Assembly (NCBI RefSeq): GCF_003353425.1
Contig: NZ_QRAO01000001.1
Location: 620,001 to 684,000 of the forward strand
Source of the DNA: Marinirhabdus gelatinilytica
GTDB taxonomy: Bacteria > Bacteroidota > Bacteroidia > Flavobacteriales > Flavobacteriaceae
Length of the DNA: 64,000 nt
Direction: 5' to 3'
The position numbers and the translations under genes were made by a program. Positions 5,014 to 21,200 of the stretch are shown in pieces (the first letter of the stretch is position 1; every line of letters begins with the position of its first letter). The notes under the pieces are model-generated. The model was not told the origin of the DNA. It saw only the letters and a list, made by a program, of their open reading frames with translations, and did no database searches.

Positions 5014-7410
5014 ATGAAACAAATGTACCTCGCAGCTTTTTTAACGGTATTCTTCTTTTCAGCCTTTTCGGCAAGTGGGCAGATCATAAATTTTCCGGAT
5101 AGTCACTTCAAGAACGCATTGGTAGTGTCCAGTCCTGGCAACGGTATTGCTAAAGACATAGACGGAAATGCCATAGCGATAGATGCTAACGGGGATGGTG
5201 AAATCGAGGTTTCTGAAGCATTGACAGTGTATCAATTGGACATAAATACCCAGCTCATTACAAGTGTAGCAGGGATTGAAAATTTTTCGAACCTCACGCT
5301 CTTAGATTGTACTTCGAACATTATTAACGACATGGATCTTACTGCGTTGGGTAATCTACAAGTCTTGAAATGTTCCAATAACGAGATGGAAACGATCAAT
5401 ATCACGGGTCTTACAAATTTAGACACTGTTAGGGCCTTTAGTAACGATTTAACCACTGTAGACCTGTCGGGTCTCACTAGTCTTACCGAACTCTCCCTTA
5501 GTAGCAACCAGATTACTTCCCTAGATGCCAGCCCTGCTGTAAACTTAGAAAGCCTTATTGTTGCTTATGGACCCCTAAACAGCTTAACCCTTGGCTCGTT
5601 GCCCAATCTTACCTATTTGGAATGTGTTACTTCCAACCTTACTTCCCTGGACGTAACGGGGTGTCCCAATCTTGAATCGCTTTTGTGTTTCGACAATGAA
5701 ATTACAGCATTGGACCTTTCTGGTATGGCAAGTCTTGAGATAGTTAATGCTACAGATAATGCCTTCGATTCTATCACCCTTGCCAATAACACAAATCTGC
5801 AAATTTTAAACGTGGCCCAAAGTAATTTAACGACCCTCGATATTTCTGAATGCCCCAACCTTACCCAGCTATCTTGTTACGATAACGCACTGGAAACTTT
5901 ATTTCTGAAAAACGGTACAGATGAATTTGTAGATATAAGTGGAAATCCAGATCTGGAATATATTTGTTGTGACGAAGAACAGTTTAACAATATCCTTGAT
6001 TTAATCATGCTCTTCGAGTACGATACAAACCTGAACACATACTGTTCCTTTACTCCAGGAGGAACATTTTATACAGTAGCTGGAAATTCAAATTACGATT
6101 TTAATGCAAACGGTTGTGATGCCACAGATCCTCCGGTTTCCTATCTTCAATTTGACATTACCGACGGTACAACCAGCGGTAGTTTTATAGCTAATAATAG
6201 TGGAGCCTATTCTATTGAAGTCCCCGAAGGCAGTTATACTATCACCCCACAAGTGGAAGTTCCAGAATATTTTACCATAACACCTTCAAACTTAGTAGTG
6301 AACTTCCCCACAGATCCAAGTCCTTTCGCCCAGGATTTCTGTGTGGTCGCGGACGGTGTCCACCCAGACCTTGACGTGACCATCATCCCGCTGGAGCCTG
6401 CGAGGCCCGGCTTCGATGCCTCCTACCGCATCTCCTACAGCAACAAGGGGAACCAGGTACAGTCCGGTGACGTCACCATTACCTATCTGGAGCCTTTGAT
6501 GGCGTACGTGTCCTCCGACCCCGTTTTCGATTCGGAGACCCTGAACAGCTACACCTGGGACTTTGTGGACCTGCTTCCCTTCGAGACCCGTACCATAGAT
6601 ATCGTGTTCACCATAAACGCACCCACTGCCACCCCGCCCGTGGACATAGACGACGTACTGGTGTTCACTGCGGACATTGCGCCCCTTTCCGGCGATGAGA
6701 CGCCACTGGACAACCAGTTCGTCCTGGACCAGGTGGTCGTGGGCTCTTTCGACCCCAATGATATAAGGTGCCTGCAGGGGGAGTCGATCTCCCCGGAGGC
6801 CGTTGGCGGTTATGTGCACTATCTCATCCGCTTTGAGAACACGGGGACCTTCCCCGCGGAGAACATCGTTGTGGTCGATGAGATAGATCCCGAGTTCTTT
6901 GATGTGGAGACGATGCGCCCGCTGAATGGGAGCCACGATTTTGTGACGAGGGTGACGGGCCAGAAGGTCGAGTTCATCTTCGAGGGAATAGACCTTCCCT
7001 TCAATGATGAAGATAACGACGGGTTCGTGCTCTTCAAGATAGAGACGGTTCCCGGCCTTGGGTTGGGCGACAGTTTCAGCAACAGTGCGGAGATATTCTT
7101 CGACTTCAATTTCCCCATCGTTACCAATACCTATACCACTACCATAGAGGAGTCGTTGGGAACAGCTGAAAATAATTTTTCTGAAACTATTTCGGTCTAT
7201 CCAAACCCTTCAAAAGATATTTTGTACATAGCACATAACAACCAAGTTGAAATTGCTTCCATTGAAATACTGGACCTTGTAGGTAAATCGGTATTTATGG
7301 AAACAAAGAACACTTCTGAGCTAGATATTTCCAGTTTGCAGTCTGGAGCTTATTTTCTAAGAGTAGCTTCTGAAAAGGGTGTAGAGGTATTACAGTTTAT
7401 AAAAGAATAA
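5014..7410 (+). CDS. secreted leucine-rich-repeat protein with T9SS sorting domain (copy 1)
   Basis: I chose the ATG at 5014 (798 residues) because MKQMYLAAFLTVFFFSAFSA begins a normal signal peptide; an upstream in-frame ATG at 4945 would put 23 odd residues before it. Order: signal peptide; conserved IINFPDSHFKNAL; an EF-hand-like loop DANGDGEIEVSE (57-68); roughly ten leucine-rich repeats (about 75-300); a Cys-containing linker; a DUF7619-like/DUF11-like beta domain with the motif GSFDPND (about 440-712); and a type A C-terminal sorting domain starting near ENNFSETISVYPNPS (about 717-798). It is probably exported by T9SS and surface-attached or released. The region 6325-7155 has quite different base composition from its flanks. 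A paralogue follows 33 bases downstream and another lies at 28961. Confidence 0.85.
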   Translation: MKQMYLAAFLTVFFFSAFSASGQIINFPDSHFKNALVVSSPGNGIAKDIDGNAIAIDANGDGEIEVSEALTVYQLDINTQLITSVAGIENFSNLTLLDCTSNIINDMDLTALGNLQVLKCSNNEMETINITGLTNLDTVRAFSNDLTTVDLSGLTSLTELSLSSNQITSLDASPAVNLESLIVAYGPLNSLTLGSLPNLTYLECVTSNLTSLDVTGCPNLESLLCFDNEITALDLSGMASLEIVNATDNAFDSITLANNTNLQILNVAQSNLTTLDISECPNLTQLSCYDNALETLFLKNGTDEFVDISGNPDLEYICCDEEQFNNILDLIMLFEYDTNLNTYCSFTPGGTFYTVAGNSNYDFNANGCDATDPPVSYLQFDITDGTTSGSFIANNSGAYSIEVPEGSYTITPQVEVPEYFTITPSNLVVNFPTDPSPFAQDFCVVADGVHPDLDVTIIPLEPARPGFDASYRISYSNKGNQVQSGDVTITYLEPLMAYVSSDPVFDSETLNSYTWDFVDLLPFETRTIDIVFTINAPTATPPVDIDDVLVFTADIAPLSGDETPLDNQFVLDQVVVGSFDPNDIRCLQGESISPEAVGGYVHYLIRFENTGTFPAENIVVVDEIDPEFFDVETMRPLNGSHDFVTRVTGQKVEFIFEGIDLPFNDEDNDGFVLFKIETVPGLGLGDSFSNSAEIFFDFNFPIVTNTYTTTIEESLGTAENNFSETISVYPNPSKDILYIAHNNQVEIASIEILDLVGKSVFMETKNTSELDISSLQSGAYFLRVASEKGVEVLQFIKE
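6325..7155 (+). other. GC-rich mosaic block inside LRR gene copy 1
   Basis: By hand count, G+C is 40/60 at 6361-6420 and 37/60 at 6901-6960. It is 19/60 at 5881-5940 just upstream in the same gene, and 23/60 at 9541-9600 in the paralogue's equivalent domain. Codons inside the block end mostly in C or G, while the paralogue uses A/T-ending codons for nearly the same protein. The switch back to AT-rich sequence coincides with the start of the sorting domain, which is nearly identical at DNA level to the paralogue's. This points to recombination or gene conversion with a foreign or differently selected donor. Confidence 0.7.
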
Positions 7411-7443
7411 AAGAATTTTTGCTAACCAGATAATACGCATATT

Positions 7444-10044
7444 ATGAAAAAATATTTAATTGCAGTTTTGTGTCTATGGATGTCTGCTACTTCGATAGCG
7501 CAGATCATAAATTTTACAGATGTAGAACTTAAAAACAAACTCTTAACAGCAGATGCCAATAATTTTGTTGCTTCAGACATTAATGGAGATTCTGTGGCCA
7601 TAGATACCAATGCCGATGGTGAAATAGATGTAGCCGAAGCCCTAGCTATTTATGAATTGGACATCAAATCCAGTAACATTAGCGACCTAACGGGGTTGGA
7701 AAATTTCAGCAATCTCACACGTCTGGAAGTAAACCTAAACAATATTACGGTCTTTGACGGGACGGCCTTTACTAATCTAGAATACCTGGATTTTAGCAAC
7801 AACGATCTCACAACAGTAAATGTTGCAGGCCTTTCAAGTTTAGAGATATTTTGGGCTTTTGGAAACCCTTTTACTACTATAGATGTAAGCACATTAAGCT
7901 CTTTACAGTTATTGGATATTAGCTACAGTGATAATTTAACAGGGCTGGATGTAAGTAATTTGACCAGTCTTACGGATCTTTCCTGCACAAGTAACGACGC
8001 AATGGCTACACTTACTGTTCAAGGATGTACGGCGCTAGAGGATTTGCACTGTGCACACAGTGCGATTACCAGCTTAGATTTAAGTGGCTTAGCAAATTTG
8101 AGCTCTGTTTTTGCAGATAATAATAATATTACTACCGTAGATGTAACAGGAGCGGTAAGTCTTAGCAATTTAAATGTTGAGTTTAACCAGATTACATCGC
8201 TCTCTGTCCAGGACTTGCCCTTGTTACAATCTATTAATGCCGAGAGTAATGCAATTAGTAGTTTTAATATGTCCAACTGCCCATTTTTCTTCACGTTGTT
8301 ATTAAGCAACAATCAATTGCAAACTCTTGATTTATCACAGGTGCCCAATACAACCATTGTGTACGCCCAAAATAATGTGCTGGAAGATTTAATACTCGCT
8401 CAAGATAATGAGATAGTAAATATCCACCTTTCCAACAATTTACTTACCGCAATAGATTTGAATGAGTGCATGAACCTTAACTGGGGTACGTTTAACGACA
8501 ACCCAAACCTGGAATATTTATTTCTTAAGAACGGAAGTATAGAGTCACTTTTCAATATTAACATAGATAACCTGCCCAACTTGCAGTTTGTATGTGCCGA
8601 TGAAGTTCAACTCACAGATGTGCAAACTTGGCTAGTAAATAACGGCTATAATAATGTAAACGTAAGCAGCTCTTGCCCCGATCTCGGCGGTGATATTTTT
8701 GAAATACAAGGAATGTCGCGTTTCGATTTTGATATGGATGGCTGTGCAGGCACAGACCCCGTGGTACCTTTTATGAACTACAGTATTACCAACGGCACAG
8801 ATACAAGCACGGGCATAGCCAATGGTAGCGGAATGTATTATATTCCCGTTGAAGAAGGCACGTACACCGTAACCCCTTCTTCGGTAGATCCAGCTCTTTT
8901 CGATGTTGACCCTGCAAGCTTCACTGTTTCATTTCCAACCGATCCTAGTCCGTTTGAGCAGGATATATGTTTTGTTGCAAATTCGGTAACCAATGATCTT
9001 GAAGTACTAATAAGCCCCATAACACCAGCACGCCCTGGATTTGATGCTACCTACCAACTTATCGTAAATAACGTTGGTAACCAGGTTCTTAGCGGTGATG
9101 TAACAATTATCTATCTTGAAAACTTAATGACCTTTTTAGAGTCTGATATTCCTTTTGATGCTTCTACAAGCAATAGCTTTACCTGGAATTTTAGTGATTT
9201 AATGCCTTTCCAAAGTTTTACGGTAAACCTTACATTTACTATAAACACGCCCACAGACCCCAATTTTCCCGTAAACATTGATGATGTTTTGGTTTTTACA
9301 GCAACCGTAAACCCTATAACGGGTGATGCAAACCCTGTGGATAATATATTCACGCTAGACCAAATTGTTGTAGGCTCTTTTGATCCCAATGATATTACCT
9401 GTTTGCAGGGTGAGACCATCACTCCCCAAGAAGTAGACAGCTATATGTATTACCTTATACGGTTTGAAAATACAGGAAACTTCCCCGCAGAAGATGTTGT
9501 TGTTGTGGATGAAATAGATACAGACTTATTCCAGCTAGAGAGCTTGAAACCGGTTAACGCTAGCCACGATTTTGTAACCCAAATTACAGATAATACAGTA
9601 GAGTTTATATTTGAGGATATCAACCTCCCTTTCAACGATGCGGATAATGATGGTTTTGTTCTTTTTAAAATCAAGACAGTTCCCACATTGGAACTTGGCG
9701 ATTCATTTAGCAATTCAGCCGAAATTTTCTTCGACTTCAATGAGGCTATAGTTACCAATACCTATGTCACGACCATAGAAAAACCTCTTGGAACTGCTGA
9801 AAATACTTTTTCTGAAACTATTTCGATCTACCCAAACCCTTCAGAAGATATGTTGTATATAAATGACCCAAAAGAGACTGTTCAGGCATACAAGATATAT
9901 TCTATTTTAGGACAAACTGTTTTAGAAAGTGGAACTAAAAAGGTACAGTATGATGTAGATATCTCAATATTAAAAGCGGGAAACTATTTTATTGAGTTTG
10001 AGACACTTTCTGGTCCTGTGTTTAAGAGATTTTTGAAAAAGTAA
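7444..10044 (+). CDS. secreted leucine-rich-repeat protein with T9SS sorting domain (copy 2)
   Basis: 866 residues. Order: signal peptide MKKYLIAVLCLWMSATSIAQ; IINFTDVELKN; EF-hand-like loop DTNADGEIDVAE (54-65); about 14 leucine-rich repeats with LxxLxxLDVSxN-type periodicity (about 75-395); Cys-containing linker; the same DUF7619-like domain with GSFDPND; and a type A sorting domain from about residue 783 (GTAENTFSETISIYPNPS). Very similar in its last 400 residues to the gene upstream but more diverged in the repeats, so the pair is probably a tandem duplication with diverging recognition surfaces. The ligand is unknown. The composition is uniformly AT-rich, unlike copy 1. Confidence 0.85.
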   Translation: MKKYLIAVLCLWMSATSIAQIINFTDVELKNKLLTADANNFVASDINGDSVAIDTNADGEIDVAEALAIYELDIKSSNISDLTGLENFSNLTRLEVNLNNITVFDGTAFTNLEYLDFSNNDLTTVNVAGLSSLEIFWAFGNPFTTIDVSTLSSLQLLDISYSDNLTGLDVSNLTSLTDLSCTSNDAMATLTVQGCTALEDLHCAHSAITSLDLSGLANLSSVFADNNNITTVDVTGAVSLSNLNVEFNQITSLSVQDLPLLQSINAESNAISSFNMSNCPFFFTLLLSNNQLQTLDLSQVPNTTIVYAQNNVLEDLILAQDNEIVNIHLSNNLLTAIDLNECMNLNWGTFNDNPNLEYLFLKNGSIESLFNINIDNLPNLQFVCADEVQLTDVQTWLVNNGYNNVNVSSSCPDLGGDIFEIQGMSRFDFDMDGCAGTDPVVPFMNYSITNGTDTSTGIANGSGMYYIPVEEGTYTVTPSSVDPALFDVDPASFTVSFPTDPSPFEQDICFVANSVTNDLEVLISPITPARPGFDATYQLIVNNVGNQVLSGDVTIIYLENLMTFLESDIPFDASTSNSFTWNFSDLMPFQSFTVNLTFTINTPTDPNFPVNIDDVLVFTATVNPITGDANPVDNIFTLDQIVVGSFDPNDITCLQGETITPQEVDSYMYYLIRFENTGNFPAEDVVVVDEIDTDLFQLESLKPVNASHDFVTQITDNTVEFIFEDINLPFNDADNDGFVLFKIKTVPTLELGDSFSNSAEIFFDFNEAIVTNTYVTTIEKPLGTAENTFSETISIYPNPSEDMLYINDPKETVQAYKIYSILGQTVLESGTKKVQYDVDISILKAGNYFIEFETLSGPVFKRFLKK

Positions 10045-10079
10045 TAAAACTCTATTAGCCTTTAAAATTATTTGAGCCA

Positions 10080-10117
10080 AATTGTAGGAGTACTTGTAAT
10101 GGTTCTGCACTACAATT
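10080..10117. other. long-loop inverted repeat between LRR copy 2 and ccsBA
   Basis: AATTGTAG (10080-10087) is perfectly complementary to CTACAATT (10110-10117), with a 22-base loop and no T run. It could be a weak transcript 3' end for the LRR gene or an operator for the cytochrome maturation gene that starts 47 bases later. Confidence 0.3.
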
Positions 10118-10163
10118 AGTATCTTACCGTTTTACTTAGTGAAAACATAAAAAGTTTATATTC

Positions 10164-13100
10164 TTGAAACTTAAAAAAATAATTAGGAAGTTTTTGGGCA
10201 CCCGTGCGGCCGGACTTTATTTTATTCTTTTCGCAGCAGCCATAGGCGTCGCCACTTTTATTGAGAATGACTTTGGAACCAGCGCTGCTCAAAAAGTGGT
10301 ATATAGGGCCAGGTGGTTCGAGTTGCTGCTTTTCTTGTTTGGCGCAACGATTATATTCAATATTTATCAATACCGAATGATCCAGCAGAAAAAATGGGCC
10401 TTGCTGCTTTTCCACGCATCGATCATCGTTATTTTGATTGGGGCAGGGGTGACACGTTACTTTGGTTTTGAAGGGGTCATGCACATACGGGAAAACAATA
10501 CGGCCAGCTCTTTCCTTTCGGCGGAGACCTTTCTCAAGTTTGAAGTGCAAAAAGATGGGACAACCTATACATTTGATGAGCCCGTGCTATTCGCTTCTTT
10601 GGGAACCAATACTTTTGAGGAATCGTATTTAATTGGGAATGATCTTATTGAGGTTCAACTTAAAGAATTTGTCCCAAACCCTAAGCAAACTTTCACTACG
10701 AGTGAAGACGGACAACCAGCCCTTAAGCTGGTTGTCGCTGGAACGCAAGGACGGGAGGAATATTTTGTTGAAAAAGGGCAAACACGTCGTATAGGGAACT
10801 TGACCTACAATTTTAAGGAAAGTACAATGCCAGGGGCTATTAACTTGAAATATGAGGACGAAGCTCTTTTCATAAATTCAGAAAGGACCCTCACCCAAAC
10901 CGTTATGGCTACCCAACAAAAAGACACCATTGGCGGCTCTAGTGGGTATGTACCCCTAAAATTACGTTCGTTGTATTCGGATGGTGCCAATAATTTTGTG
11001 TTTTCTGAATTTCAGCCCAATGCTTCAGTAGCCATTACCTCTGAAGATCCCAAAGTTAAAGGAGATAGTATGGTTGCACTGTTTCTTACTATTTCAGTAA
11101 ACGGAAATACCCAAGAAAATTATGTGTACGGAATGAAAGGGCTGCCAGGAAGAACCACTCCCTTTTCTTTTGAAAGCCTGCAAATGAAGGTCTCGTATGG
11201 AGCCAGGGAAGTTACCGTTCCCTTTGCAATACAATTAAAAGATTTTCAGTTGGAGAAATATCCCGGGACCAATAGTGCATCCTCCTATGCCAGCGAAGTA
11301 ACTGTTTTGGATCCCAATGAAAACGTGAATATGGACTACCGTATTTATATGAACAACATCTTGGATTACGATGGATACAGGTTCTTCCAATCGTCCTTTG
11401 ATAAAGACGAAAAAGGAACGTATCTGAGTGTGAACAGCGATTGGTGGGGCACAATAATTTCCTATTTGGGCTATGCTTTGCTCACCTTGGGAATGATTTG
11501 GACGCTCTTCAGCAAAAGAACCCGTTTTTATGAAGTCCGAAAAAAAATAAAGAAGATAAGAGCCAAGAGCGGAACGTTCGTGTTTATATTGTTCTGTATG
11601 CTTTCTGCATCTAGTATGGCACAGGGCAACCACGTAAATTCGGCAGTTTCTGAAGCGCACGCCGAAACCTTTAGTACTGTGGTAGTACAGGATTTTAAAG
11701 GGCGAATGAAACCCGTGCACACCCTCTCCCGCGAGTTGCTCCGTAAAATCTCCAGAAAAGAAAGTTGGGATGGCCTCACGGCGGACCAAGTGTTGCTAAG
11801 TATGTTTGTGAACAAGCAGGATTGGTATGGGGTCAAGCTTGTGAAATTGGGTAAAAACCAAGAGATCCAAAAATTGTTGAATGTTTCGGGAGATTATGCA
11901 TCGTACAAAGATTTTTTCGATACCGAAGGACAATACAAACTGCGTGATGAGGTGCGGCGCATCTATGCCATGGAACAGAAGGACCGTGGTACCTATGCCA
12001 AGGAACTCATTAAAATAGATGAACGTCTCAATATTTTGAGCATGGTTTTTTCGGGTAGTTTGCTGAAAATTATTCCCAACCCAAACAATCCCAACAATAC
12101 TTGGGAAGGATATACCAATCATGGCCATGATGATGGCCATAACCACAGTGCTGTGGCCAGTAAGTTTTTTAATGCCTATGGAACCGAACTGAAAAAAGCA
12201 ACCCAAACCAACAATTATACTCATGTAGGACACCTGTTGGAAGAATTGAAAGCCTATCAAAAAAATAGCGGTGGTGCCGTGATGCCTTCTGAGGCAAAGA
12301 TCAATACCGAAATAGCCCTGAATAAAATGAACGTGTTCTCACGATTGGCAGGTTGGTATATGCTATTGGCACTTGCTTTATTGTTCTTTCTGTTTGTTTC
12401 GGTGTTTAAACCCAATTGGAAACTGAAGAAGATATACTATGTACTCTTTGGATTGGTAGTCCTTGGTTTTGTATTGCATACCATCGGGCTAGGAATGCGC
12501 TGGTATGTTTCCGGTAGGGCACCCTGGAGCAATGGTTATGAATCTATGATCTATATCGCTTGGACCTCAACACTTGCCGGAATTTTATTTACCCGTAAAT
12601 CTTTTGGAGGTCTAGCGGCAACCATGGTATTGGCAGGCACTATTTTATTTGTGTCTATGCTCAGTTTCTTGGATCCGGAAATCACACCACTGGTTCCCGT
12701 CTTAAAATCGTATTGGCTTACCATCCACGTGTCTTTGGAAGCCGGAAGCTATGGATTCTTGATGTTGGGTGCTATTATAGGGCTCATCAATTTAATATTG
12801 CTGATGTTCATTTCAGAAAAGAACAAGACCCGAGTAAAACGTATTGTACAAGAAATGTCATATATAAGTGAACTTACCTTAATAGGTGGGTTGTTTATGG
12901 TAAGTGTAGGTACTTATTTAGGCGGTGTTTGGGCCAATGAGTCCTGGGGTCGTTATTGGGGATGGGATGCCAAGGAAACGTGGGCATTGGTTACTATTTT
13001 AGTCTATGCGTTTATCCTACATATGCGCTTGATTCCAAAATTACGCGGATTGTTTGCCTATAACGTAGCGACCATTTTTGGATTGGCTTCAGTAATTATG

Positions 13101-13259
13101 ACGTACTATGGTGTAAACTACTACCTTTCTGGTTTGCACAGCTATGCCACAGGAGATCCGGTGCCTATACCTAACTGGGTGTACGTTGCAGTAGCTGTGA
13201 TTATTTGTATTTGTATTATAGCATTCATTAGAAAGCGCAAATACCCCATTATATCATAA
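10164..13259 (+). CDS. ccsBA: cytochrome c biogenesis protein, ResB-CcsA fusion
   Basis: System II cytochrome c maturation: moves haem across the inner membrane and attaches it to CxxCH motifs in the periplasm. 1031 residues from a TTG start (no closer ATG). The N-terminal ResB half has membrane segments near 16-34, 52-69 and 78-97, a large periplasmic domain, then a segment near 425-445. A second periplasmic part follows, with a histidine-rich patch NHGHDDGHNHS near 652. The C-terminal CcsA half has many membrane segments and the tryptophan-rich haem-handling motif WGRYWGWDAKETWAL (about 927-940), plus conserved His in HTIGLGMRW, HVSLEAGSYG and HMRLIPK. The stop lies only 6 bases from the stop of the convergent multihaem cytochrome operon, whose products need exactly this activity. 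Confidence 0.93.
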   Translation: MKLKKIIRKFLGTRAAGLYFILFAAAIGVATFIENDFGTSAAQKVVYRARWFELLLFLFGATIIFNIYQYRMIQQKKWALLLFHASIIVILIGAGVTRYFGFEGVMHIRENNTASSFLSAETFLKFEVQKDGTTYTFDEPVLFASLGTNTFEESYLIGNDLIEVQLKEFVPNPKQTFTTSEDGQPALKLVVAGTQGREEYFVEKGQTRRIGNLTYNFKESTMPGAINLKYEDEALFINSERTLTQTVMATQQKDTIGGSSGYVPLKLRSLYSDGANNFVFSEFQPNASVAITSEDPKVKGDSMVALFLTISVNGNTQENYVYGMKGLPGRTTPFSFESLQMKVSYGAREVTVPFAIQLKDFQLEKYPGTNSASSYASEVTVLDPNENVNMDYRIYMNNILDYDGYRFFQSSFDKDEKGTYLSVNSDWWGTIISYLGYALLTLGMIWTLFSKRTRFYEVRKKIKKIRAKSGTFVFILFCMLSASSMAQGNHVNSAVSEAHAETFSTVVVQDFKGRMKPVHTLSRELLRKISRKESWDGLTADQVLLSMFVNKQDWYGVKLVKLGKNQEIQKLLNVSGDYASYKDFFDTEGQYKLRDEVRRIYAMEQKDRGTYAKELIKIDERLNILSMVFSGSLLKIIPNPNNPNNTWEGYTNHGHDDGHNHSAVASKFFNAYGTELKKATQTNNYTHVGHLLEELKAYQKNSGGAVMPSEAKINTEIALNKMNVFSRLAGWYMLLALALLFFLFVSVFKPNWKLKKIYYVLFGLVVLGFVLHTIGLGMRWYVSGRAPWSNGYESMIYIAWTSTLAGILFTRKSFGGLAATMVLAGTILFVSMLSFLDPEITPLVPVLKSYWLTIHVSLEAGSYGFLMLGAIIGLINLILLMFISEKNKTRVKRIVQEMSYISELTLIGGLFMVSVGTYLGGVWANESWGRYWGWDAKETWALVTILVYAFILHMRLIPKLRGLFAYNVATIFGLASVIMTYYGVNYYLSGLHSYATGDPVPIPNWVYVAVAVIICICIIAFIRKRKYPIIS

Positions 13260-13265
13260 AAGGAT

Positions 13266-14090
13266 CTATTCAACTAAAACAGCATCCTCTACTATAAGAT
13301 TGTATTTGTAGCCTGCGCCAAAATCCCTGTTCAAACTTACTTTACCTCGTACGGTAACGGTTTGGCCTTCGGGAATAAATGTGTTGGATGTTGCTACAAG
13401 ATCAAAGTCGTTTTTGGTGCCATCCTGTAAGTGCAACCAATTACGGTTCATAATGTTTGGGTTCACTTTTACTACTTTTCCGGATAGCTGGACTGTTTTA
13501 CCCTCGTATTGCTTTGGGTTGGCGACCAATTCGGCAATCTTTATAGAGCCTTTGTGCTCAATCACCTTTTTGGTATGTGTCTCAATAGTTTGTTTTTGGG
13601 ATGTTTCAGCCGGGGGGGAGCTTGTGTTGTTTTCGGTAAAGTCTGCTTTTATATTTCCTGCACCGTGGTTGTGCGAAACAAGGTTGGATACCAAATAGAT
13701 AGTATCGAACACACGGTTATGTTCCCTGCTTTCAAAATTGGTTTTCAATAACGGGTCTCGGTAATAATAGGTCTTGCCAACGTCTATGGGCTGCTTTGCA
13801 GTAGCGATCCAGAAAGACTTGCCTCCCTCGGTAACATTTATGTAAACATACTTTTTGGTGTCCAGTGTTTTTTGTGCGACAACGCTATGCAAATTATCGG
13901 TAAAGGAACCACCTGTGTTGGAATCGGGAATTAAATTAGGAGTTTCGGTAGAGGGTTCTTCAGTAAAAATCCCACTGGTATTTACAGGTGTTTCATTGGA
14001 AGAGGCAGTAATAACCTTGGGACCATTGTTGCAGGATGCCATAGTGGCCAGTACTAGACTAGCCCATAAAATGTTCAGCTTTATATTCAT
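13266..14090 (-). CDS. OB-fold lipoprotein, last gene of the multihaem operon
   Basis: 274 residues. Lipobox MASC with Cys at residue 20, then a low-complexity Ser/Thr/Glu/Pro linker. A central domain (about 70-145) contains YVYINVTEGGKSFWIATAK, resembling GW/SH3-like modules. The C-terminal domain (about 178-274) has the pattern IAELVANPKQYEGKTVQLSG and NRNWLHLQDGT, an OB-fold type that I associate with proteins encoded near multihaem cytochromes. Its start overlaps the stop of the beta-barrel gene upstream by 4 bases, so it is translationally coupled. Probable role: accessory lipoprotein of the electron conduit, periplasm- or surface-facing. Function not proven. Confidence 0.75.
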   Translation of the reverse strand: MNIKLNILWASLVLATMASCNNGPKVITASSNETPVNTSGIFTEEPSTETPNLIPDSNTGGSFTDNLHSVVAQKTLDTKKYVYINVTEGGKSFWIATAKQPIDVGKTYYYRDPLLKTNFESREHNRVFDTIYLVSNLVSHNHGAGNIKADFTENNTSSPPAETSQKQTIETHTKKVIEHKGSIKIAELVANPKQYEGKTVQLSGKVVKVNPNIMNRNWLHLQDGTKNDFDLVATSNTFIPEGQTVTVRGKVSLNRDFGAGYKYNLIVEDAVLVE

Positions 14091-15697
14091 CTTTTTTTCT
14101 TTTTGCTATAAAATCTTTTTGTGAGCCGCGTGTAAAAGCGGTAGTTTTTTTCATCGTTGGAATCTAGGGTGGAAAGTTCTCCGTTTATTGAAAACTGCCA
14201 AGAACGGGATATACTCCAGTTAAGGCCACCTCCAAAATAATTTTGAGTAAAGGTTTCATCACGGTTTTCATACTCATATTTTGCATTTCTAAAATACGCA
14301 TCTGCTTGTAACTTCCCTTTTACAACATCCCTAGAATAGCGTACCGAGGCAATATTGCTGGAAAGATATCGTGAGGTGTTACTGTTATAAGAAACGTTAA
14401 ATCTACCTCCAACCCCGGGGATTTTAGAAAGCGTAGCATACCCGTATACGTTATTGGATTCGTTTTGGCTATCGCTCTGTGAACGATTACTGTAACTTGC
14501 TCCCAACCATACAATTTTTGCAGGACGCACATTTAAACGTAGCCGAATTCCTTGACGTGCAAGGTCGTCATCCAAAAATCGTTCGAGTTCTGTTTGGAAT
14601 GTTTGGTAATAAATAATCTGCTTTCGGCTATCGTACGAAATCATCGCATTTACGGCTCTGCTGAAGCGGTACCGTGCAGAAAGATAGAGATTTGTTAATC
14701 GGGAACCACCTTCCTCTCCCCCAAAAATATCCAACTCCATAGAGCTGAAAAGATTGAGGTTTGAAGCTATGGTGCTATTATGCTGAAAATAGATATATCG
14801 TCTATCGGTCGCCCCGGCATTGGTCTGCTCCATGGCCCCTAGTGTGGTCTGGCTGTAAAAATCTTTGCTATCGGTTTCAATGCCGAAATATCCTCCATAT
14901 TGTAGCAGATCGGTATTGAATCCGTAGTCGAAAATGTCGGGTCTAAAACCTCCAATGGCTCCTACATAAAACTTTCCGAAGTATTTTTCAACCATTACCC
15001 CGTCGTTTGCTCCCAACGAGCTTGCCTTAGGGTTTATTTTTCTTCCGGCAGTAATTGAAAGGTCCGGTAAGGCATCGTAGCGAAGATTAAGATTATAAAT
15101 GTTGAAAATACTTGTACGGGATGCGTAATTTTCGGGTGGGGAGAGAATGCTGCGATAGGCGATATAACTCTCTACTGAAAATTTTGAATCGCCAATGTGG
15201 TTTGCCGTTAACGAAAATCTTCCTTGTAACCTATTCCTGCTTTCTCTAACATTTGAAGAGAGATTATAACTGGCCACCGAAACACGCCCACGGATATTCT
15301 CTTTGTACAGCGATTCTTTTTCTGAATATTCTGGCGCTACATCAACAGTCGTCTTTGGGGCTTCCTCAGTTGTGTCTGTCGTTTCAATAGGAACGTCGTC
15401 GGTTGTTGTTTCTGTAGTTGAAACGGTTGCTGTAACCGTATCATCTTTGCTTACCTCACAATTGTTAATGCTAGTACAAACTGCTGATGTTGAGGAAAGG
15501 CTGGTGATTTTTAAACAATTTGTTCCATTAAATGTAAGGACGTCGCCAACGTTCAAATTTTCAGTACCATCAAACCGTACATACACATTGTTTGAGGTAA
15601 CAAACGTAACTGCACCCTGTAACGTTTTGCCTGCATCTTGGGCAAATACGCCTAATGCAACACCAAAAATAAGTATGCAGCTAACAAGTTTTTTCAT
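14087..15697 (-). CDS. outer-membrane beta-barrel protein of the multihaem operon
   Basis: 536 residues from the ATG at 15697, where MKKLVSCILIFGVALGVFAQ gives a clean signal peptide; longer in-frame readings overlap the cytochrome gene. After the signal is a small N-terminal beta domain (GAVTFVTSNNVYVRF, then NVGDVLTF), a Thr-rich linker, and from about residue 145 a long run of alternating amphipathic strands with aromatic girdles (for example RGRVSVASYNLSS and YIYFQHNSTIASNLNLFS), ending RFYSKKKKR. This is what a 16-24 strand outer-membrane barrel looks like. It follows the 19-haem cytochrome gene by 7 bases. By analogy with porin-cytochrome complexes it could sheath a cytochrome across the outer membrane; that is an inference from position and topology only. 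Confidence 0.75.
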   Translation of the reverse strand: MKKLVSCILIFGVALGVFAQDAGKTLQGAVTFVTSNNVYVRFDGTENLNVGDVLTFNGTNCLKITSLSSTSAVCTSINNCEVSKDDTVTATVSTTETTTDDVPIETTDTTEEAPKTTVDVAPEYSEKESLYKENIRGRVSVASYNLSSNVRESRNRLQGRFSLTANHIGDSKFSVESYIAYRSILSPPENYASRTSIFNIYNLNLRYDALPDLSITAGRKINPKASSLGANDGVMVEKYFGKFYVGAIGGFRPDIFDYGFNTDLLQYGGYFGIETDSKDFYSQTTLGAMEQTNAGATDRRYIYFQHNSTIASNLNLFSSMELDIFGGEEGGSRLTNLYLSARYRFSRAVNAMISYDSRKQIIYYQTFQTELERFLDDDLARQGIRLRLNVRPAKIVWLGASYSNRSQSDSQNESNNVYGYATLSKIPGVGGRFNVSYNSNTSRYLSSNIASVRYSRDVVKGKLQADAYFRNAKYEYENRDETFTQNYFGGGLNWSISRSWQFSINGELSTLDSNDEKNYRFYTRLTKRFYSKKKKR

Positions 15698-15704
15698 TAC
15701 ATAT

Positions 15705-17147
15705 TTATTCTTCTCCAGTTGGATGGCACTGGAAGCAGGCATTACTCTCGTACACGTATCCATTTACATCTTCATGTTCATCTGCCATTTCACCTGCTGG
15801 GTGGCAATTCAAGCAATCGAATATGGAAAAATTATTGGTTACCATGTGACAATCTGTACAAGAAGTCCATACATCATCATGTTTCCCGCTGTAAATGGGG
15901 AAATACATATTGTCATGATCAAAAGTGGCGGGCATCCAGCCTGGATTGGTCGTATGGCAGGAAGCACAATCTGTAGGAAAACCTGCCGCTTGATGGTTCG
16001 GGTTGGTTGTTCCGGCATAATCGTCCATATGGCACGCAAAGCAATCGGTTGGGGTGTTGTTAAAATTCCCGTTCTCGTGACATGCATTACAATCCTGAAT
16101 GTCATGGCCAAGTGTAAGAGGGAAAAAATCGTGGTTCAAGACCGCAGGCATCCACCCTGGGTTGGTAGAGTGACAAGAAGCACAATCTGTTGGGAAGCCA
16201 GCTGCTTGGTGGTTCGGGTTGGTTGTTCCGGCATAATCGTCCATATGGCATGCAAAACAGTCCGTTGGGGTATTGTTGAAGTTTCCGTTTTGGTGGCAAG
16301 CGTTACAATCTTGAATATCGTGGCCAAGTGTTAGGGGGAAAAAATCGTGGTTTATGGTTGCTGGCATCCAGCCTATGTCTGTGGTGTGGCACTGTGCACA
16401 GTCCGTAGGGAAATTTCCGCTTTGGTGGTTGGGGTTTTGAGCCATGGCATAGTCCTCCATATGGCAGGCAAAACAATCTGATGATATATTGCCAAAGTTG
16501 CTTACGTCATGACAAGCGCTACAATCTTGGATATCATGTCCTTTGGTCAAAGGGAAAAAATCGTGCAGTATGCCTGCACCGTCCCAACCAAATCCAAGTG
16601 GATCGTGACATTCAATACAATCTGTTGAAAAGCCAGCGATTGCGTGATTAGGGCTCTGTGTGGCAAAATAATCGTCACGGTGACATTCAATACATTCGTT
16701 TCCTAATCTATTGAATATTAAGCTACTTTCAAGGGTGTGGCATTCTACACAACTTAAATTGCTGTGTGCACCAATAAGGGGAAAACCGTTTTGTTCGTGG
16801 ATTTCTGGAATTTCAAAAACCAACCAATTGTCTGTGGTATGGCAGCGTACACAATCATTTCCAACGCTTTGGGCGTGTACATCGGTATGGCAGGAAAAAC
16901 AATCGGTAGGAGCTTGGTCGAACACCAAATCTGTATGGCAGGATTTACAGTCAACAAGTTCGTGTGTACCTTCCAATTCAAAATTGGTAGTGCTATGGTC
17001 AAATTTTAAAGTTTCAAAATCAATCTCCCAGCCCCCCGGGTTATGGCAAGAGGCACAATCTATCTTCAAATTTGAGCCATGTGGAGACTGTCCCCACAAA
17101 AAGCTTGTAAAGCATAGAAATAACGCTATAAATGACAGTCTTTGCAA
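15705..17147 (-). CDS. multihaem cytochrome c with 19 CxxCH motifs
   Basis: 480 residues, signal peptide MQRLSFIALFLCFTSFLWGQ, TTG start overlapping the end of the previous gene by 22 bases. I count 19 CxxCH haem-attachment motifs in about 460 mature residues, roughly one per 24. Many extra His (for example NHDFF and LGHDI) could be distal ligands, as in bis-His c3/c7-type cytochromes. Residues 187-402 are three tandem 72-residue units, each carrying three CxxCH. No membrane anchor is seen, so the mature protein is periplasmic or passes into the outer-membrane barrel encoded next. The role is probably electron transfer; there is no sign of a catalytic (for example nitrite reductase) domain. 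Confidence 0.88.
   Translation of the reverse strand: MQRLSFIALFLCFTSFLWGQSPHGSNLKIDCASCHNPGGWEIDFETLKFDHSTTNFELEGTHELVDCKSCHTDLVFDQAPTDCFSCHTDVHAQSVGNDCVRCHTTDNWLVFEIPEIHEQNGFPLIGAHSNLSCVECHTLESSLIFNRLGNECIECHRDDYFATQSPNHAIAGFSTDCIECHDPLGFGWDGAGILHDFFPLTKGHDIQDCSACHDVSNFGNISSDCFACHMEDYAMAQNPNHQSGNFPTDCAQCHTTDIGWMPATINHDFFPLTLGHDIQDCNACHQNGNFNNTPTDCFACHMDDYAGTTNPNHQAAGFPTDCASCHSTNPGWMPAVLNHDFFPLTLGHDIQDCNACHENGNFNNTPTDCFACHMDDYAGTTNPNHQAAGFPTDCASCHTTNPGWMPATFDHDNMYFPIYSGKHDDVWTSCTDCHMVTNNFSIFDCLNCHPAGEMADEHEDVNGYVYESNACFQCHPTGEE
15942..16589 (-). repeat. three tandem 216-bp units, each encoding three haem sites
   Basis: Units correspond to residues 187-258, 259-330 and 331-402 of the 19-haem cytochrome; a fourth begins at GWMPATFDHD (403). 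The spacing is exactly 72 codons. The last two units are almost identical in protein and close in DNA, while the first is more diverged, so the array has grown by recent duplication. Confidence 0.9.
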
Positions 17148-18958
17148 TCTAGTTTTTCTAATTTATATATAACGGTTGTTTCACCAGTTTCAGTACGCAC
17201 TTCATGGCAGGCCCTACAATCCAGAGAGGCGTGCTTGCCTTGTAGCGGGAAACGTGTATTACTGTGATCAAATTTTTCTGGCAACCAACTTGTTGTGACG
17301 TGACAACGGGTACATTGTGTAACCCCGTTTATGGCAAATTCATCTCCGTGGACATTATCATGACAAGAAGCGCAGTTAGTGTCTAAATTACTGAAATTTT
17401 GTGAGAATTGGGTGCTGTTTTCTACATTTTCAAAGTGACAAGCACGGCAGGATACATTATTGTGGGCTCCTGTAAGTGGCCATTCAGTTTGTGAATGGTT
17501 AAATGTAACTGAAGTCCAAGCATCACTCACGTGGCAGGCGGTACAATCGTTCTCAGGGTAGTATGTTGAAGCAATAAATCCTTCATGGATGTTGTTATGG
17601 CAATCTATACAATTTGTACCTAGATTGGCAAACTCCCATTTAGGGTCGTCTTCGCTCACATGGCAGGCAAAACATGGAGTAGCAACATGGGCACCCTCGA
17701 GGGGGAAATCAGATGTGTTGTGATCTTCAATGGTGAAGAGGGTAAACTCAAACCCTTTTTCCAAGCTGTGACATTCTCTACAGTCGGGGGTAACGCCATT
17801 TTCGGTGAAATCGCCTTCGTGGTAATCTGCATGACAATTCTTACATTCAGAAAAATCTATGGGGGTTGAAAAGCTTTCTTCGTGACATGCCCTACAGTCT
17901 ACGCCTTGGTGTTTTCCTTCCAATGGATAGTCGGTCACAGAATGGTCAAAGAAGCCCATGTCGTTAAGCGCTAGAAAACTTTCTTCATTGTGACATTTTG
18001 CGCAATCCTGTCCAAACTTGTTATCGTGAGGATCGGTGTGGCAAGCAACACAATTGTTTTCTTCCACATTTTTTCTATCCTGAAAAACAGTAGCTGCATT
18101 ATTTGTATTGGTATGGCAGGTAAAACAATCTATAGCTTTATGGCTCCCATTGAGGTCAAAATTGGTTACCGTATGGTTAAAGTTGCCCTTACCCATAAAG
18201 ATATCAAACCCATTTTCTACGTGGCATTGTTTACACTGCCCAGGCAAACTGCCGTTGTGAACGTCCTGATGGCAAGCTTTACAATCGTTAAATGCCAAGC
18301 CCGTAAACTGCTGAAATTCATTACCATTTTTTGTGGTAGTTTGGTGGCATTCCTTGCAATCTACCACTAGGTGTTGTCCCCGCAATTTATAGTCGGCTGT
18401 TTCATGGTTAAACTTGGTAACCGGTGTGAAGCCCTCCATACTATGGCACTGTAGGCAATCTGTAGGTAAGGTGCCTTGGTGAAAATCTTCGTGGCAGGAG
18501 AGGCATTTTTGGTTTAGTCCCAACCACGTATCGCTGTCGCTACGTAGTTTAGGGTCCGGAATATTTGTTGGGTTGTGGCAATCTCTACAATCTACTTTTG
18601 CGTGGGCACCCTCTAGGGTGTACCCAGTTCGATTATGGTTGAAATTATTGGTATCGAACCGAATCATATCAAAATTGCGCCCGTGGTGTTCGCTATGGCA
18701 CTCAAAACAGTTTTGCGCCTTTACGCGACTATTGGCATGCAAACCCCTATCTTGATTGAGGAGGGATTGTATTTCGTTATGGCAATCCAAGCATTTGGAG
18801 TCAGACACCTTAGCCCCAAGCTCGTGGCACAAGGTACAATTGCCCATGCCTTCCAGCTCACTGTGTGCCTTGGTAAGGTCTCCAGGTGAGATTTGGGCAA
18901 AAAGAGAGTGACTTCCCAGAAGGAAGCACAGTACAATATATGTTACACTTACTCGCAA
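17126..18958 (-). CDS. multihaem cytochrome c with 23 CxxCH motifs
   Basis: 610 residues, signal peptide MRVSVTYIVLCFLLGSHSLFA, TTG start 2 bases after the flavoprotein stop. I count 23 CxxCH motifs. A recurring module (F-x-H-x4-[FYW]-x-L-x-G-x-H, then CxxCH) appears seven or eight times, for example FNHSQTEWPLTGAHNNVSC, and supplies both proximal and likely distal His. This matches the doubled-CxxCH/cytochrome c7-like multihaem families. Soluble or peripheral periplasmic protein, no transmembrane segment after the signal. Together with the next gene it gives 42 predicted haems. The likely role is to carry electrons from the inner-membrane module to the 19-haem cytochrome and barrel. Confidence 0.9.
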   Translation of the reverse strand: MRVSVTYIVLCFLLGSHSLFAQISPGDLTKAHSELEGMGNCTLCHELGAKVSDSKCLDCHNEIQSLLNQDRGLHANSRVKAQNCFECHSEHHGRNFDMIRFDTNNFNHNRTGYTLEGAHAKVDCRDCHNPTNIPDPKLRSDSDTWLGLNQKCLSCHEDFHQGTLPTDCLQCHSMEGFTPVTKFNHETADYKLRGQHLVVDCKECHQTTTKNGNEFQQFTGLAFNDCKACHQDVHNGSLPGQCKQCHVENGFDIFMGKGNFNHTVTNFDLNGSHKAIDCFTCHTNTNNAATVFQDRKNVEENNCVACHTDPHDNKFGQDCAKCHNEESFLALNDMGFFDHSVTDYPLEGKHQGVDCRACHEESFSTPIDFSECKNCHADYHEGDFTENGVTPDCRECHSLEKGFEFTLFTIEDHNTSDFPLEGAHVATPCFACHVSEDDPKWEFANLGTNCIDCHNNIHEGFIASTYYPENDCTACHVSDAWTSVTFNHSQTEWPLTGAHNNVSCRACHFENVENSTQFSQNFSNLDTNCASCHDNVHGDEFAINGVTQCTRCHVTTSWLPEKFDHSNTRFPLQGKHASLDCRACHEVRTETGETTVIYKLEKLDCKDCHL

Positions 18959-18960
18959 AC

Positions 18961-20298
18961 CTATTTGTGTTTTTTTACGGTATAGCCAAATCGTTTGGTC
19001 ACCTCAACTCCGGCTCTTTCCAAAAAAGCGGTAGGCAGTAACCCTCCAGCAAATATATATACCAAATCATTAGGTACTTTTTTATCTCCTTCGGTTTCCA
19101 CATTAAAAATACAATTTTCTTCCGTTATTTCTGTAAGATTGGAATTAAAGACAACGTCCAGTTTTTTTTCATCAATGGCAGTTTTTATCTTCTCCCTGTT
19201 CTTGGGCTTCGACCTAGTAAAAGAGTCACTTCTGCACAGCAGGTGCACGTTGTTTTCCTCCATAAGTAGCATGGCGGCTTCCATGGCAGAATCACCCCCA
19301 CCCACTACAACTATGTTTTTACCTGAAATGAGTTCGGGCTCCAACAACCTGTAGGCTACCTTCTCAGTATCTTCACCAGGAATTCCTAATTTACGTGGGC
19401 TACCACGCCTCCCTATGGCAATTATTACATTATTGGCTAAATGTTCTTCTCCACTCGCGGTCACCACTTTAAATGTATTGTCTTTGAGTGGCGTAATGTT
19501 TTCCACTTTTGTGTTTTCTTGAATTGAAATGTTGTTTTCGGAAATTACCTTGTTCCATAGATCCAATAACTCCTTTTTGGAAGTGTCGTGAAGTTTCACC
19601 TTACCATGCAGGGGAAGGTGCATGGGGGAGGTCATTACTACTTTGGAACGTGGAAAGGTAAATACAGCGCCTCCCAAGGAGTCCTGCTCCAGTGTAATGC
19701 TGGAAAGCTCGTGCTTTTTTGCCGCTAGTGTAGCCGAGATACCAGCAGGTCCTGCTCCAATTACAGCGACATCCAGCACGTTTTGGGGGTTGGATTTATT
19801 GCTTTTTACAATACTATCCACGGCTTGTTGTCCTTGCTCCACACTATTTTTTATAAGTCCCATTCCTCCAAGTTCTCCTGCAATATAGATACCTGGGATG
19901 TTGGTTTCAAAATTTTGATTAACGTGCGGGAGCTCGACACCGCGCTCTTCTGTACCTATTCTAAGGGTTATCGCTTCCACAGGACAGGCGTGAAAACAAG
20001 CTCCGTGTCCAACGCAGTTGGAAGCATTAACAGCCTGCGCTTGGCCGTTTACCATCCCCAATATATCTTTTTCGGGACAGGCCTTAATACATGCACCACT
20101 ACCAATGCAGGCGTTGGGGTCTATATAGGGATGTAAGGAAACCGGCTCGTACAAGCCTTCTTCTTTGGCAATAGCCACCTTTTTGAGGGTTTGTTTGGTG
20201 GTTTTGTTTTTCTTCCGTAGATATATAAAGAATATAACAGCACAGAAAAGGAACACCGTCCCATACGTAACTAACTGTTCTAAAAAGACTGAATCCAT
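18961..20298 (-). CDS. membrane-anchored Fe-S/FAD NAD(P)-binding oxidoreductase
   Basis: 445 residues. Membrane anchor at about 10-27. Two ferredoxin-like motifs follow: CIGSGACIKACP (C64, C70, C74) and CVGHGACFHACP (C95, C101, C105). In both, the usual second Cys is replaced, by Ser67 and His98. Next comes TNIPGIYIAGELGG (about 132-145), a motif that normally closes the FAD domain of thioredoxin-reductase-like enzymes. Only after it does the FAD domain begin with GAGPAG (181-186), followed by the NAD(P) motif VVGGGDSAMEAA. No redox CxxC of true thioredoxin reductase is visible. Probable role: passes electrons between NAD(P)H, its clusters and the partner membrane cytochrome. It is 3 bases from the gene before and 2 from the gene after, a tight operon. 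Confidence 0.85.
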   Translation of the reverse strand: MDSVFLEQLVTYGTVFLFCAVIFFIYLRKKNKTTKQTLKKVAIAKEEGLYEPVSLHPYIDPNACIGSGACIKACPEKDILGMVNGQAQAVNASNCVGHGACFHACPVEAITLRIGTEERGVELPHVNQNFETNIPGIYIAGELGGMGLIKNSVEQGQQAVDSIVKSNKSNPQNVLDVAVIGAGPAGISATLAAKKHELSSITLEQDSLGGAVFTFPRSKVVMTSPMHLPLHGKVKLHDTSKKELLDLWNKVISENNISIQENTKVENITPLKDNTFKVVTASGEEHLANNVIIAIGRRGSPRKLGIPGEDTEKVAYRLLEPELISGKNIVVVGGGDSAMEAAMLLMEENNVHLLCRSDSFTRSKPKNREKIKTAIDEKKLDVVFNSNLTEITEENCIFNVETEGDKKVPNDLVYIFAGGLLPTAFLERAGVEVTKRFGYTVKKHK

Positions 20299-20301
20299 AA
20301 C

Positions 20302-21123
20302 TTAAAATATCCAACGGTATCCAAAGGTGAATGCCACTACTACGTGCACCACTACAATGACCAACATGATGATAGCAAAAGGCATGTGCGCTACATGCCA
20401 GTACCTAAAGAGTTTTTTCATTTGTTCCAAACGCTCTATTTTTTTTGAAAGGGAACGCTCCTTTTTCACTATGCTGAAGATGTTGCGCTGTTCGGTTTTA
20501 GGAACGCTATGTTCTTCGAGGGTGGTTTTCAAATCGCTTTTGGTGACGGCTTCTCCTTTGTTCTTATCAATAAAATTCAAGAAAAGAATGGCACTCTTTT
20601 CATCTAGATTATATTTTTCTGAAAGCACCGTTTGTATATCGGTCTGCGAATTTTTTACTTCCTGTAGGCTCAGTTCCCGTCCTTCGATAGTCCGTGGGAT
20701 CTGTAGGTATAAAAACCTGCCAATAACACCACTGGCAACCACTGCAACCATACTCCAAAAGGCTACGGAAACGATACCCCCAAACTTGAAAGCTGTATGG
20801 TACAGGATGAGTACAGGACCTAGACTGCATAAAAAAATATGGAATTCCAGTAAATACTTTAATCGAACCCACTTTCCCAAAATCGTGTAGCGTTTGTGCA
20901 AAATATAGATGAACACCCCAAAAAATATAAGGAAGGTCCCTATTACACCCAAACCTTGCCCGAATAGGCCACTGGGTTTGAACCAGCTGTGCCTTGGATG
21001 GTAAAAACGCTCTTCTAGGGGGGTACTGTAGTAGGAGTAGCCAGTATAGCCAAGATACACTGCAACGGCAACTACGATGAGTGCCATGGTCCAAATATAA
21101 ATAGTGTGTACGGTTTTGTTCAC
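20302..21123 (-). CDS. di-haem b-type membrane protein, first gene of the multihaem operon
   Basis: 273 residues from a GTG start. Predicted membrane segments near 9-28, 56-76, 91-112, 118-140 and 248-268, with a charged, probably cytoplasmic loop at 145-240. Two helices each carry a pair of His 14 residues apart: His95/His109 and His246/His260 (with His243 nearby). That is the geometry expected for two stacked b-haems in a four-helix bundle, as in ferric-reductase and cytochrome b-type proteins. I do not recognise a named family. Position and haem ligands suggest it moves electrons across the inner membrane between the flavoprotein or quinol pool and the periplasmic cytochromes. Promoter region with an Fnr-like palindrome lies 43-63 bases upstream of the start. 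Confidence 0.75.
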   Translation of the reverse strand: MNKTVHTIYIWTMALIVVAVAVYLGYTGYSYYSTPLEERFYHPRHSWFKPSGLFGQGLGVIGTFLIFFGVFIYILHKRYTILGKWVRLKYLLEFHIFLCSLGPVLILYHTAFKFGGIVSVAFWSMVAVVASGVIGRFLYLQIPRTIEGRELSLQEVKNSQTDIQTVLSEKYNLDEKSAILFLNFIDKNKGEAVTKSDLKTTLEEHSVPKTEQRNIFSIVKKERSLSKKIERLEQMKKLFRYWHVAHMPFAIIMLVIVVVHVVVAFTFGYRWIF

Positions 21124-21166
21124 AATTTTAGAGGTTTATGTAATAAACTAATGTACAATTTAATTA

Positions 21167-21186
21167 TTATTGAAATATATCAATAA
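21167..21186. promoter_or_regulatory. Crp/Fnr-type operator candidate in the divergent promoter of the multihaem operon
   Basis: Perfect 7-bp arms TTATTGA and TCAATAA around a 6-base centre. The core TTGAAATATATCAA differs from the Fnr consensus TTGATnnnnATCAA at one position. It lies in the 77-base gap between the GTG of the operon (minus strand) and the TTG of the DUF4097-like gene (plus strand). A near-consensus -7 element, TACATTAG on the minus strand, lies at 21148-21155. Confidence 0.5.
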
Positions 21187-21200
21187 AACAACTTAAGCCC

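Follow-up and report, generated by a model that had tools for sequence, protein, structure and literature searches.

A candidate PCC3-type electron conduit of Bacteroidota with a flavoprotein in its operon and cytochromes that vary in tri-haem steps

PCC3 is a predicted porin-cytochrome conduit (PCC) reported from Alpha-, Beta- and Gammaproteobacteria, among them Sideroxydans lithotrophicus ES-1 and Leptothrix cholodnii (He et al. 2017, PMC5566968), and its first known hosts were Fe(II) oxidisers. In the accessible text of that paper its description comprises four genes, none of them for a flavoprotein, 22 to 39 residues per haem (median 26) and an inner-membrane protein of about 300 residues and five transmembrane segments (TM), which carries SGxxG on TM4 and two WX3HX13H motifs on TM3 and TM5, a signature given for the inner-membrane proteins of both PCC3 and PCC4. 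The PCC3 cytochromes of Gallionellaceae have 10-18, 26, 28, 29, 33 or 35 haems when external and 21, 24 or 27 when periplasmic, according to the accessible part of PMC10734462. Here we analyse a stretch of 64,000 nucleotides (the window) from the flavobacterium Marinirhabdus gelatinilytica (contig NZ_QRAO01000001.1, positions 620,001 to 684,000), in which six genes, two of them for multihaem cytochromes (MHCs), very probably encode a trans-envelope electron conduit. We hypothesise that it is a PCC3-type conduit of Bacteroidota, fed by NAD(P)H and running outward, and put the probability of this reading at about 0.6.

The six genes lie tightly packed on the minus strand at 13266-21123, as read from the open reading frames (ORFs) of the window. 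In the order of transcription they encode the membrane protein CytB, an Fe-S/FAD protein, the cytochromes MHCa and MHCb, a beta-barrel and a lipoprotein, and the measured gaps of 3, 2, -22, 7 and -4 bases bear out a first-pass annotation of this DNA, which had described gaps of at most 7 bases or overlaps. The 23 CxxCH motifs of MHCa and the 19 of MHCb, 42 in total, were likewise reproduced. Chance is excluded as the origin of the 23, since 1000 shufflings of the MHCa sequence, the one that was shuffled, gave 0.26 motifs on average and never more than 3. That the operon forms a conduit from inner to outer membrane is well supported at the level of sequence by the barrel prediction, the conserved gene order, the b-haem protein and the neighbourhood, where reading the adjoining ORFs by eye revealed no recognisable periplasmic reductase.

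CytB (20302..21123, minus strand; 273 residues) has the features published for the PCC3-type inner-membrane protein, with one departure. The histidine pairs H95/H109 and H246/H260, which had been noted as two pairs 14 residues apart and correspond to HX13H, are invariant together with SGxxG in 40 of 40 aligned rows (the window and 39 of 40 homologues, the shorter L072 being left out). WX3H is found on the last helix in all 40 rows and on the third helix in 29; in the window a Leu replaces the first W, so that WX3H is incomplete on TM3. The structure model (mean pLDDT, the predicted local distance difference, 81.9) places helices at 3-27, 53-78, 88-109 and 117-140 and a very long last helix at 209-266. 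No Pfam family matched CytB above its cut-off, the best match up to E 0.1 being TMEM100 at 0.084; PF01794, the domain that defines the ferric reductase domain (FRD) and NADPH oxidase (NOX) family, was absent among Pfam matches up to the same E value, and a CytB profile found nothing meaningful among the sequences of the PDB. A fit to cytochrome b561 (5zle, Z 6.9, root-mean-square deviation (rmsd) 3.4 over 139 residues) lay inside the noise range and was discarded.

The barrel gene (14087..15697, minus strand) was called as an ORF that starts too early; the signal peptide and the relatives point to the ATG at 15697 as the likely start. The model (mean pLDDT 84.1) predicts 22 strands within residues 115-513, by our own count, preceded by a small N-terminal beta domain. 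Residues from about 110 to 513 align to solved outer-membrane barrels, with Z scores of 16.6 to 20.1 among the 50 matches listed and a best match of Z 20.1 over 355 residues at rmsd 4.6; the barrel alignment took 23 of the 24 barrels listed. The fold searches confirm the outer-membrane barrel that had first been proposed. They point to barrels of a generic kind and single out no relative, and MtrB is absent among the 50 matches listed in either search. No Pfam family matched the barrel protein at 0.1, and in NCBIfam the only match was to Geobacter ExtJ, below its cut-off (E 0.098) and covering the start of the protein. The last gene (13266..14090, minus strand) encodes a lipoprotein, as annotated, with the lipobox ATMASC read by eye and a putative OB-like C-terminus; the gene at the same position in Emticicia has a GW domain. 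In three other loci (L056, L061 and L067) the cluster is followed, after the barrel gene, by a gene for a protein of about 350 residues, which we take to be PHP-like.

The haem numbers of the two cytochromes are quantised. Rows cut by contig or locus ends or holding N were removed before counting (26 for MHCb and 9 for MHCa), as were four MHCa rows that each represent half of a split gene (L060 and L114). Of the 88 MHCb rows that are distinct and uncut, which come from 80 loci, 84 have 3n+1 haems, ranging from 10 to 73, and the exceptions have 9, 12, 14 and 42. For MHCa the rule is 3n+2, followed by 96 of 98 unbroken rows (60 with 23 haems, 35 with 20 and one with 26; 99 of 102 when the split halves are retained); the other two have 19, and 95 of the 98 have either 20 or 23. 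These figures should be interpreted with some caution, since the rows are related by descent and the excess of 3n+1 over one in three does not come from independent trials, while repeat numbers in metagenome-assembled genomes (MAGs) may be affected by assembly. Changes within a genus therefore weigh more than the row-wide excess. In the genus of the window the MHCb haem numbers are 19 (G000), 16 (G581) and 19 (G582), and in three Arenibacter 25, 22 and 16, in both cases differing by whole units.

The unit in question is a segment of about 72 residues with three haems, of which MHCb (15705..17147, minus strand) is built. At 15931..16478 of the minus strand the units appear in the DNA as tandem repeats of 216 bp, that is 72 residues, and at the protein level units 2 and 3 share 87% identity. 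The last unit is distinctive (FPIYSG...) and recurs inside both long proteins examined, those of L054 and L120, the latter being the largest MHCb, with 73 haems in 1808 residues. Since the haem number is near-fixed in MHCa (17126..18958, minus strand) and variable in MHCb, the former is probably the periplasmic span and the latter probably an outer or extracellular wire, which matches the assignment made for PCC3. Profile searches of the PDB sequences returned no relative of MHCb and a single one of MHCa, which is c7-like (E 3.3e-5). Six loci (L068, L123, L130, L148, L153 and L165) have a second or third gene for a tri-haem-repeat cytochrome in the same cluster; the additional one in L153 has 62 CxxCH motifs in a cut ORF.

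The second gene (18961..20298, minus strand) had been described as encoding a membrane-anchored Fe-S/FAD protein, and in this the description was sound: a single N-terminal hydrophobic stretch, seen by eye, precedes Fer4 and Pyr_redox domains. The Fe-S motifs, however, are non-canonical. They read CxxSxxCxxxCP (residues 64-74) and CxxHxxCxxxCP (residues 95-105), and at the position of the second Cys in 21 aligned flavoproteins (the window and 20 of 37 homologues) the one site has His in all 21 and the other has Ser in 14, Cys in 6 and Thr in 1. The clusters are possibly [3Fe-4S] or His-ligated [4Fe-4S]. The domains follow an unusual order, with Fer4 at 56-112, a segment resembling an FAD tail at 116-172 and the FAD/NAD(P) domains at 176-442. 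A profile of the protein finds structures of YpdA and thioredoxin reductase, and in 7a7b its positions 173-435 fall on residues 3-268 of the chain while positions 126-143 fall on 277-294, a short match that is not significant alone (score 4.2); residues 116-172 also match positions 287-342 of the NCBIfam model for NAD(P)+ transhydrogenase. As a segment that is C-terminal in YpdA and thioredoxin reductases here precedes the rest, the flavoprotein is apparently circularly permuted relative to thioredoxin-reductase-like enzymes.

The flavoprotein falls below the criteria for a thioredoxin reductase (91.4 of 343.45 bits for TRX_reduct in NCBIfam), and none of its nine Cys forms a redox-active CxxC within the FAD/NAD(P) part. 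The nucleotide site is conserved, with GGGDSA, R356, R362 and K364 invariant in 21 of 21. Outside Flavobacteriaceae, 16 loci of a set of 40 described below have an intervening ORF of about 190 to 250 residues after CytB. The one scanned, in L056 (9603-10199), encodes a tetratricopeptide repeat protein, which we presume to resemble haem-lyase helpers of the CcmI/NrfG type.

The cluster is widespread in Bacteroidota. In the family, 9 of 199 sampled genomes have CytB, the window's own among them; it also occurs in 3 of 5 genomes of the genus and in 94 of 395 genomes of a phylum sample at E 0.001; 40 of these, again with its own, were strong (E <1e-30), and the 54 weak matches were not counted as clusters. 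We collected two sets of loci sharing four genomes: one of 40, in which six of the 40 strong phylum genomes are not represented, and one of 80 kept from at least 548 CytB relatives. The larger set is all Bacteroidota by title, apart from one plain "bacterium", and includes Arenibacter, Maribacter, Aequorivita, Ulvibacter, Hanstruepera, Lutibacter, Saprospiraceae and a Cyclobacteriaceae MAG. Counting presence anywhere in the fetched stretch, where many contigs end inside the cluster, CytB, flavoprotein, MHCa and MHCb occur together in 36 of the 40 and 61 of the 80 loci, these four plus the barrel in 29 and 45, and all six genes in 6 and 38. Two loci, L057 and L072, have CytB without the cluster. 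Plasmid pEMTOL02 of Emticicia oligotrophica carries ccsA and CytB together with genes for an NAD(P)-binding protein, for two cytochromes with 23 and 40 CxxCH motifs, for a hypothetical protein about as large as the barrel, and for one with a GW domain. Pairwise distances of CytB, flavoprotein, MHCa and barrel correlate over 69 loci (r 0.89-0.95), which fits joint inheritance, although a common phylogeny alone could also give this correlation.

This distribution changes two parts of the first-pass annotation. The proposed conduit and the retention of its genes in relatives stood, but the proposal of an independent conduit confined to this flavobacterium is rejected in view of homologous clusters across Bacteroidota and of an architecture and inner-membrane-protein motifs that are those of PCC3. 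Nor do the data support the view that such a system is unexpected in flavobacteria, given the frequencies above and the fact that putative PCCs and very large multihaem cytochromes of Bacteroidota are already in print. The accessible texts mention unspecified, putative novel PCCs in Bacteroidetes (PMC6344600), very haem-rich cytochromes, above all of Saprospiraceae, with no named clusters (PMC11495043), and, in one Bacteroidetes MAG, a distinct cluster that has six cytochromes (PMC8258643); those of PMC7399161, PMC9769843 and PMC6295460 add porin-cytochromes of Ignavibacteria, Cyc2 of Bacteroidota, and Bacteroidetes homologues of the CbcL type (five) and the ImcH type (one). The word "Bacteroidetes" has no occurrence in the accessible main text of PMC5566968. 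Our literature search, mostly outside subscription journals and hence weak evidence of novelty, found no paper tying PCC3 to Bacteroidota; it met no description of the flavoprotein, the linked ccsBA or the quantisation, at which no search was aimed.

Convergent with the operon lies a fused cytochrome c synthase gene, ccsBA (10164..13259, plus strand). It is a second copy, 40% identical to a paralogue on contig 3 of the same genome. Within the genus, G073 and G580, which are without CytB, have the distant copy only, G581 has both and G582 (81% complete) the linked one only; all five carriers tested from the family have both kinds. Linked copies were seen in 5 of the 40 and 35 of the 80 stretches. 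When 17 linked and 9 unlinked sequences were placed in a tree (midpoint rooting, all unlinked ones from Flavobacteriaceae), a branch with support 1.000 divided the two kinds, and the copies of Emticicia and others outside the family fell on the linked side. We think that the linked ccsBA is probably dedicated to the cytochromes of the operon.

Synthase and operon are part of a larger accessory block (4646..21200). In the congener G580 the flanking genes, whose ends in the window lie at 4645 and 21201, stand next to each other with about 110 bp between them, and the block of about 16.5 kb is therefore absent there; in G073 the contig begins near the site, and the left flank is not visible. The block also includes two genes for leucine-rich repeat (LRR) proteins (4945-7410 and 7444-10044) with DUF7619 and a C-terminal sorting domain of the type IX secretion system (T9SS). 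G581 matches one such LRR gene at the block site, and G580 has none at the site.

According to our hypothesis, NAD(P)H would reduce the FAD of the membrane-anchored flavoprotein, whose two Fe-S clusters would pass electrons to the two b haems of CytB and thereby across the inner membrane. MHCa would then carry them over the periplasm, and MHCb, associated with the barrel in what is likely a complex, would move them through the outer membrane, or past it, to an external acceptor, be it a metal oxide, humics or a partner. The haem of both cytochromes would be attached by the neighbouring ccsBA. Outward flow from NAD(P)H is the likeliest direction. An inside-negative membrane favours outward electron flow, and no energy would be conserved at such a step, so that redox balancing or metal reduction would be a more natural role than efficient respiration.

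Several observations weigh against this reading. The CytB model has no convincing structural match, Foldseek and VIA-align returning helical-bundle noise. Reading by eye shows signal peptides in both cytochromes, but neither gave a lipobox or T9SS-tail match. In the 40-locus set the flavoprotein gene adjoins CytB in 17 loci, is one ORF off in 10, lies at the far end in 10 and is absent in 3, so the pairing is not obligatory. The linked ccsBA is not general either, as 15 of 20 carriers tested, all outside the family, gave only weak matches to it. Finally, PCC3 has been called functionally unverified (PMC12442390), and we set the operon beside it by published architecture and motifs.

The point of entry admits a second interpretation, in which the same conduit exchanges electrons with the menaquinone pool through CytB and the flavoprotein serves as a side branch, accessory or regulatory. 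The proteobacterial PCC3 is described without a flavoprotein, and the accessible text of He et al. suggests a quinone-active cytb (PMC5566968); the 10 displaced and 3 missing flavoprotein genes point the same way. Two lines of evidence oppose it. First, a flavoprotein homologue is present in 37 of the 40 and 78 of the 80 loci, and in all those 78 its gene directly follows CytB. Secondly, distant plasmid relatives of CytB (hhalign probability 99.5) in Methylophaga, Alteromonas, Qipengyuania, Acetobacter, Roseomonas, Bradyrhizobium and Spirosoma adjoin a gene annotated as a 2Fe-2S protein or an FAD/NAD(P) reductase in 8 of 8 places (one of them a short piece beside an insertion sequence element), and the three such reductases scanned all have NAD- and FAD-binding domains. 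These neighbours, together with the conserved nucleotide site, the missing CxxC and the gene adjacency, argue for NAD(P)H as the likely donor, and we regard quinone entry as unlikely, though the most serious competitor. The plasmid modules (L167-L171, L229 and L230) mostly lie among copper or heavy-metal genes, that of Alteromonas (L169) beside a hydrogenase cluster.

Reversed flow, in which Fe(II), reduced minerals or a partner cell would supply electrons that enter via MHCb and reach oxidases or NADP+, appears improbable. It would be in keeping with the Fe(II) oxidisers in which PCC3 was discovered, with Sideroxydans CL21, in which cells capable of iron oxidation significantly upregulated one PCC3 copy's inner-membrane gene (PMC12442390), and with two genes of the haem-copper oxidase family in the genome of the window; from general bioenergetics, however, delivery to NADP+ would be uphill in redox potential and against the inside-negative potential. 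Least credible is a periplasmic or surface electron store (a capacitor) with no external acceptor, a role suggested in the accessible texts for the giant cytochromes found in wastewater bacteria, most of them Saprospiraceae (PMC11495043), and for PCC3 (PMC10734462), because a barrel homologue is recognised in 29 of the 40 and 45 of the 80 loci though contig ends cut many, and the correlated distances of CytB, flavoprotein, MHCa and barrel, which shared ancestry could also produce, likewise speak against it.

If the outward, NAD(P)H-fed conduit is real, many Bacteroidota join the bacteria with a trans-envelope conduit, in a phylum mostly outside the electron-transfer literature that we consulted, and electrons would enter from cytosolic NAD(P)H where the PCC3 model assumes quinone. 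The tri-haem steps amount to a natural series of lengths, from 16, 19, 22 and 25 haems to as many as 73 and in part within a single genus, which suits tests of the effect of wire length on electron transfer, and a genus with and without the block permits a clean physiological comparison. A wider proposal, for which we would claim somewhat less than even odds, is that NAD(P)H-driven exporters occur throughout Bacteroidota, consisting of an NADPH-oxidase-like core in the inner membrane, made up of the circularly permuted flavoprotein with its His- or Ser-substituted Fe-S motifs and two b haems, and of an external wire that evolves in length as entire tri-haem units are gained and lost; some lineages would have moved the set as one block together with its own cytochrome c synthase.

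Set against known systems, the operon shares with MtrCAB, MtoAB and PioAB the combination of a barrel and multihaem cytochromes for electron transfer across the outer membrane. It differs in that the cytochromes there are decahaem, in having no CymA-type gene, and, as first annotated, in the flavoprotein within the operon. Mtr membership was rejected on NCBIfam scores (MHCa 52 of 192.2 bits for the DmsE-family decahaem model, MHCb 13.7 of 209.3 for OmcA/MtrC). The Geobacter Ext and Omb-Oma-Omc systems follow the same porin-cytochrome logic, and Ext models match MHCa partly and the barrel marginally, but membership of Ext was rejected too (ExtN 48.8 of 200, ExtO 48.6 of 200, ExtJ 13.1 of 52.5 bits). 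The proteobacterial plasmid matches, once considered as PCC3, turned out to be another reductase module: a homologous CytB has a reductase of the NAD(P)H type next to it and, in most cases, a short cytochrome, whereas that reductase is of the FNR type with 2Fe-2S (in the three scanned), there is one short cytochrome, and no barrel is annotated nearby in the incomplete gene tables.

In NADPH oxidases and ferric reductases, electrons pass from cytosolic NADPH to FAD and on to two b haems across the membrane. The proposed route follows the same logic, with Fe-S clusters and a c-haem chain added. A parallel between HX13H and the FRD family is drawn in the accessible text of PMC5566968.

The resemblance to PCC3 lies in a porin gene beside two multihaem cytochrome genes in one operon, a giant cytochrome taken as external and a smaller one taken as periplasmic (median 21 haems in PCC3), an inner-membrane protein with HX13H and SGxxG, an external haem number that varies in both systems, and a similar haem density, with medians of 26.6 (MHCa) and 25.5 (MHCb) residues per haem against 26. 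The differences are the Bacteroidota hosts, the lipoprotein and Fe-S/FAD protein in the operon, which the four-gene PCC3 as described is without, the ccsBA linked to it in Flavobacteriaceae and some others, a 22-strand barrel as opposed to porins mostly with many segments, up to 42 (PMC5566968, accessible text), and haem numbers locked to 3n+1 and 3n+2 where those of Gallionellaceae are varied. The kind of conduit is thus already known, as a prediction; what goes beyond published PCC3 is the flavoprotein in the operon, the neighbouring second ccsBA and the quantised haem number.

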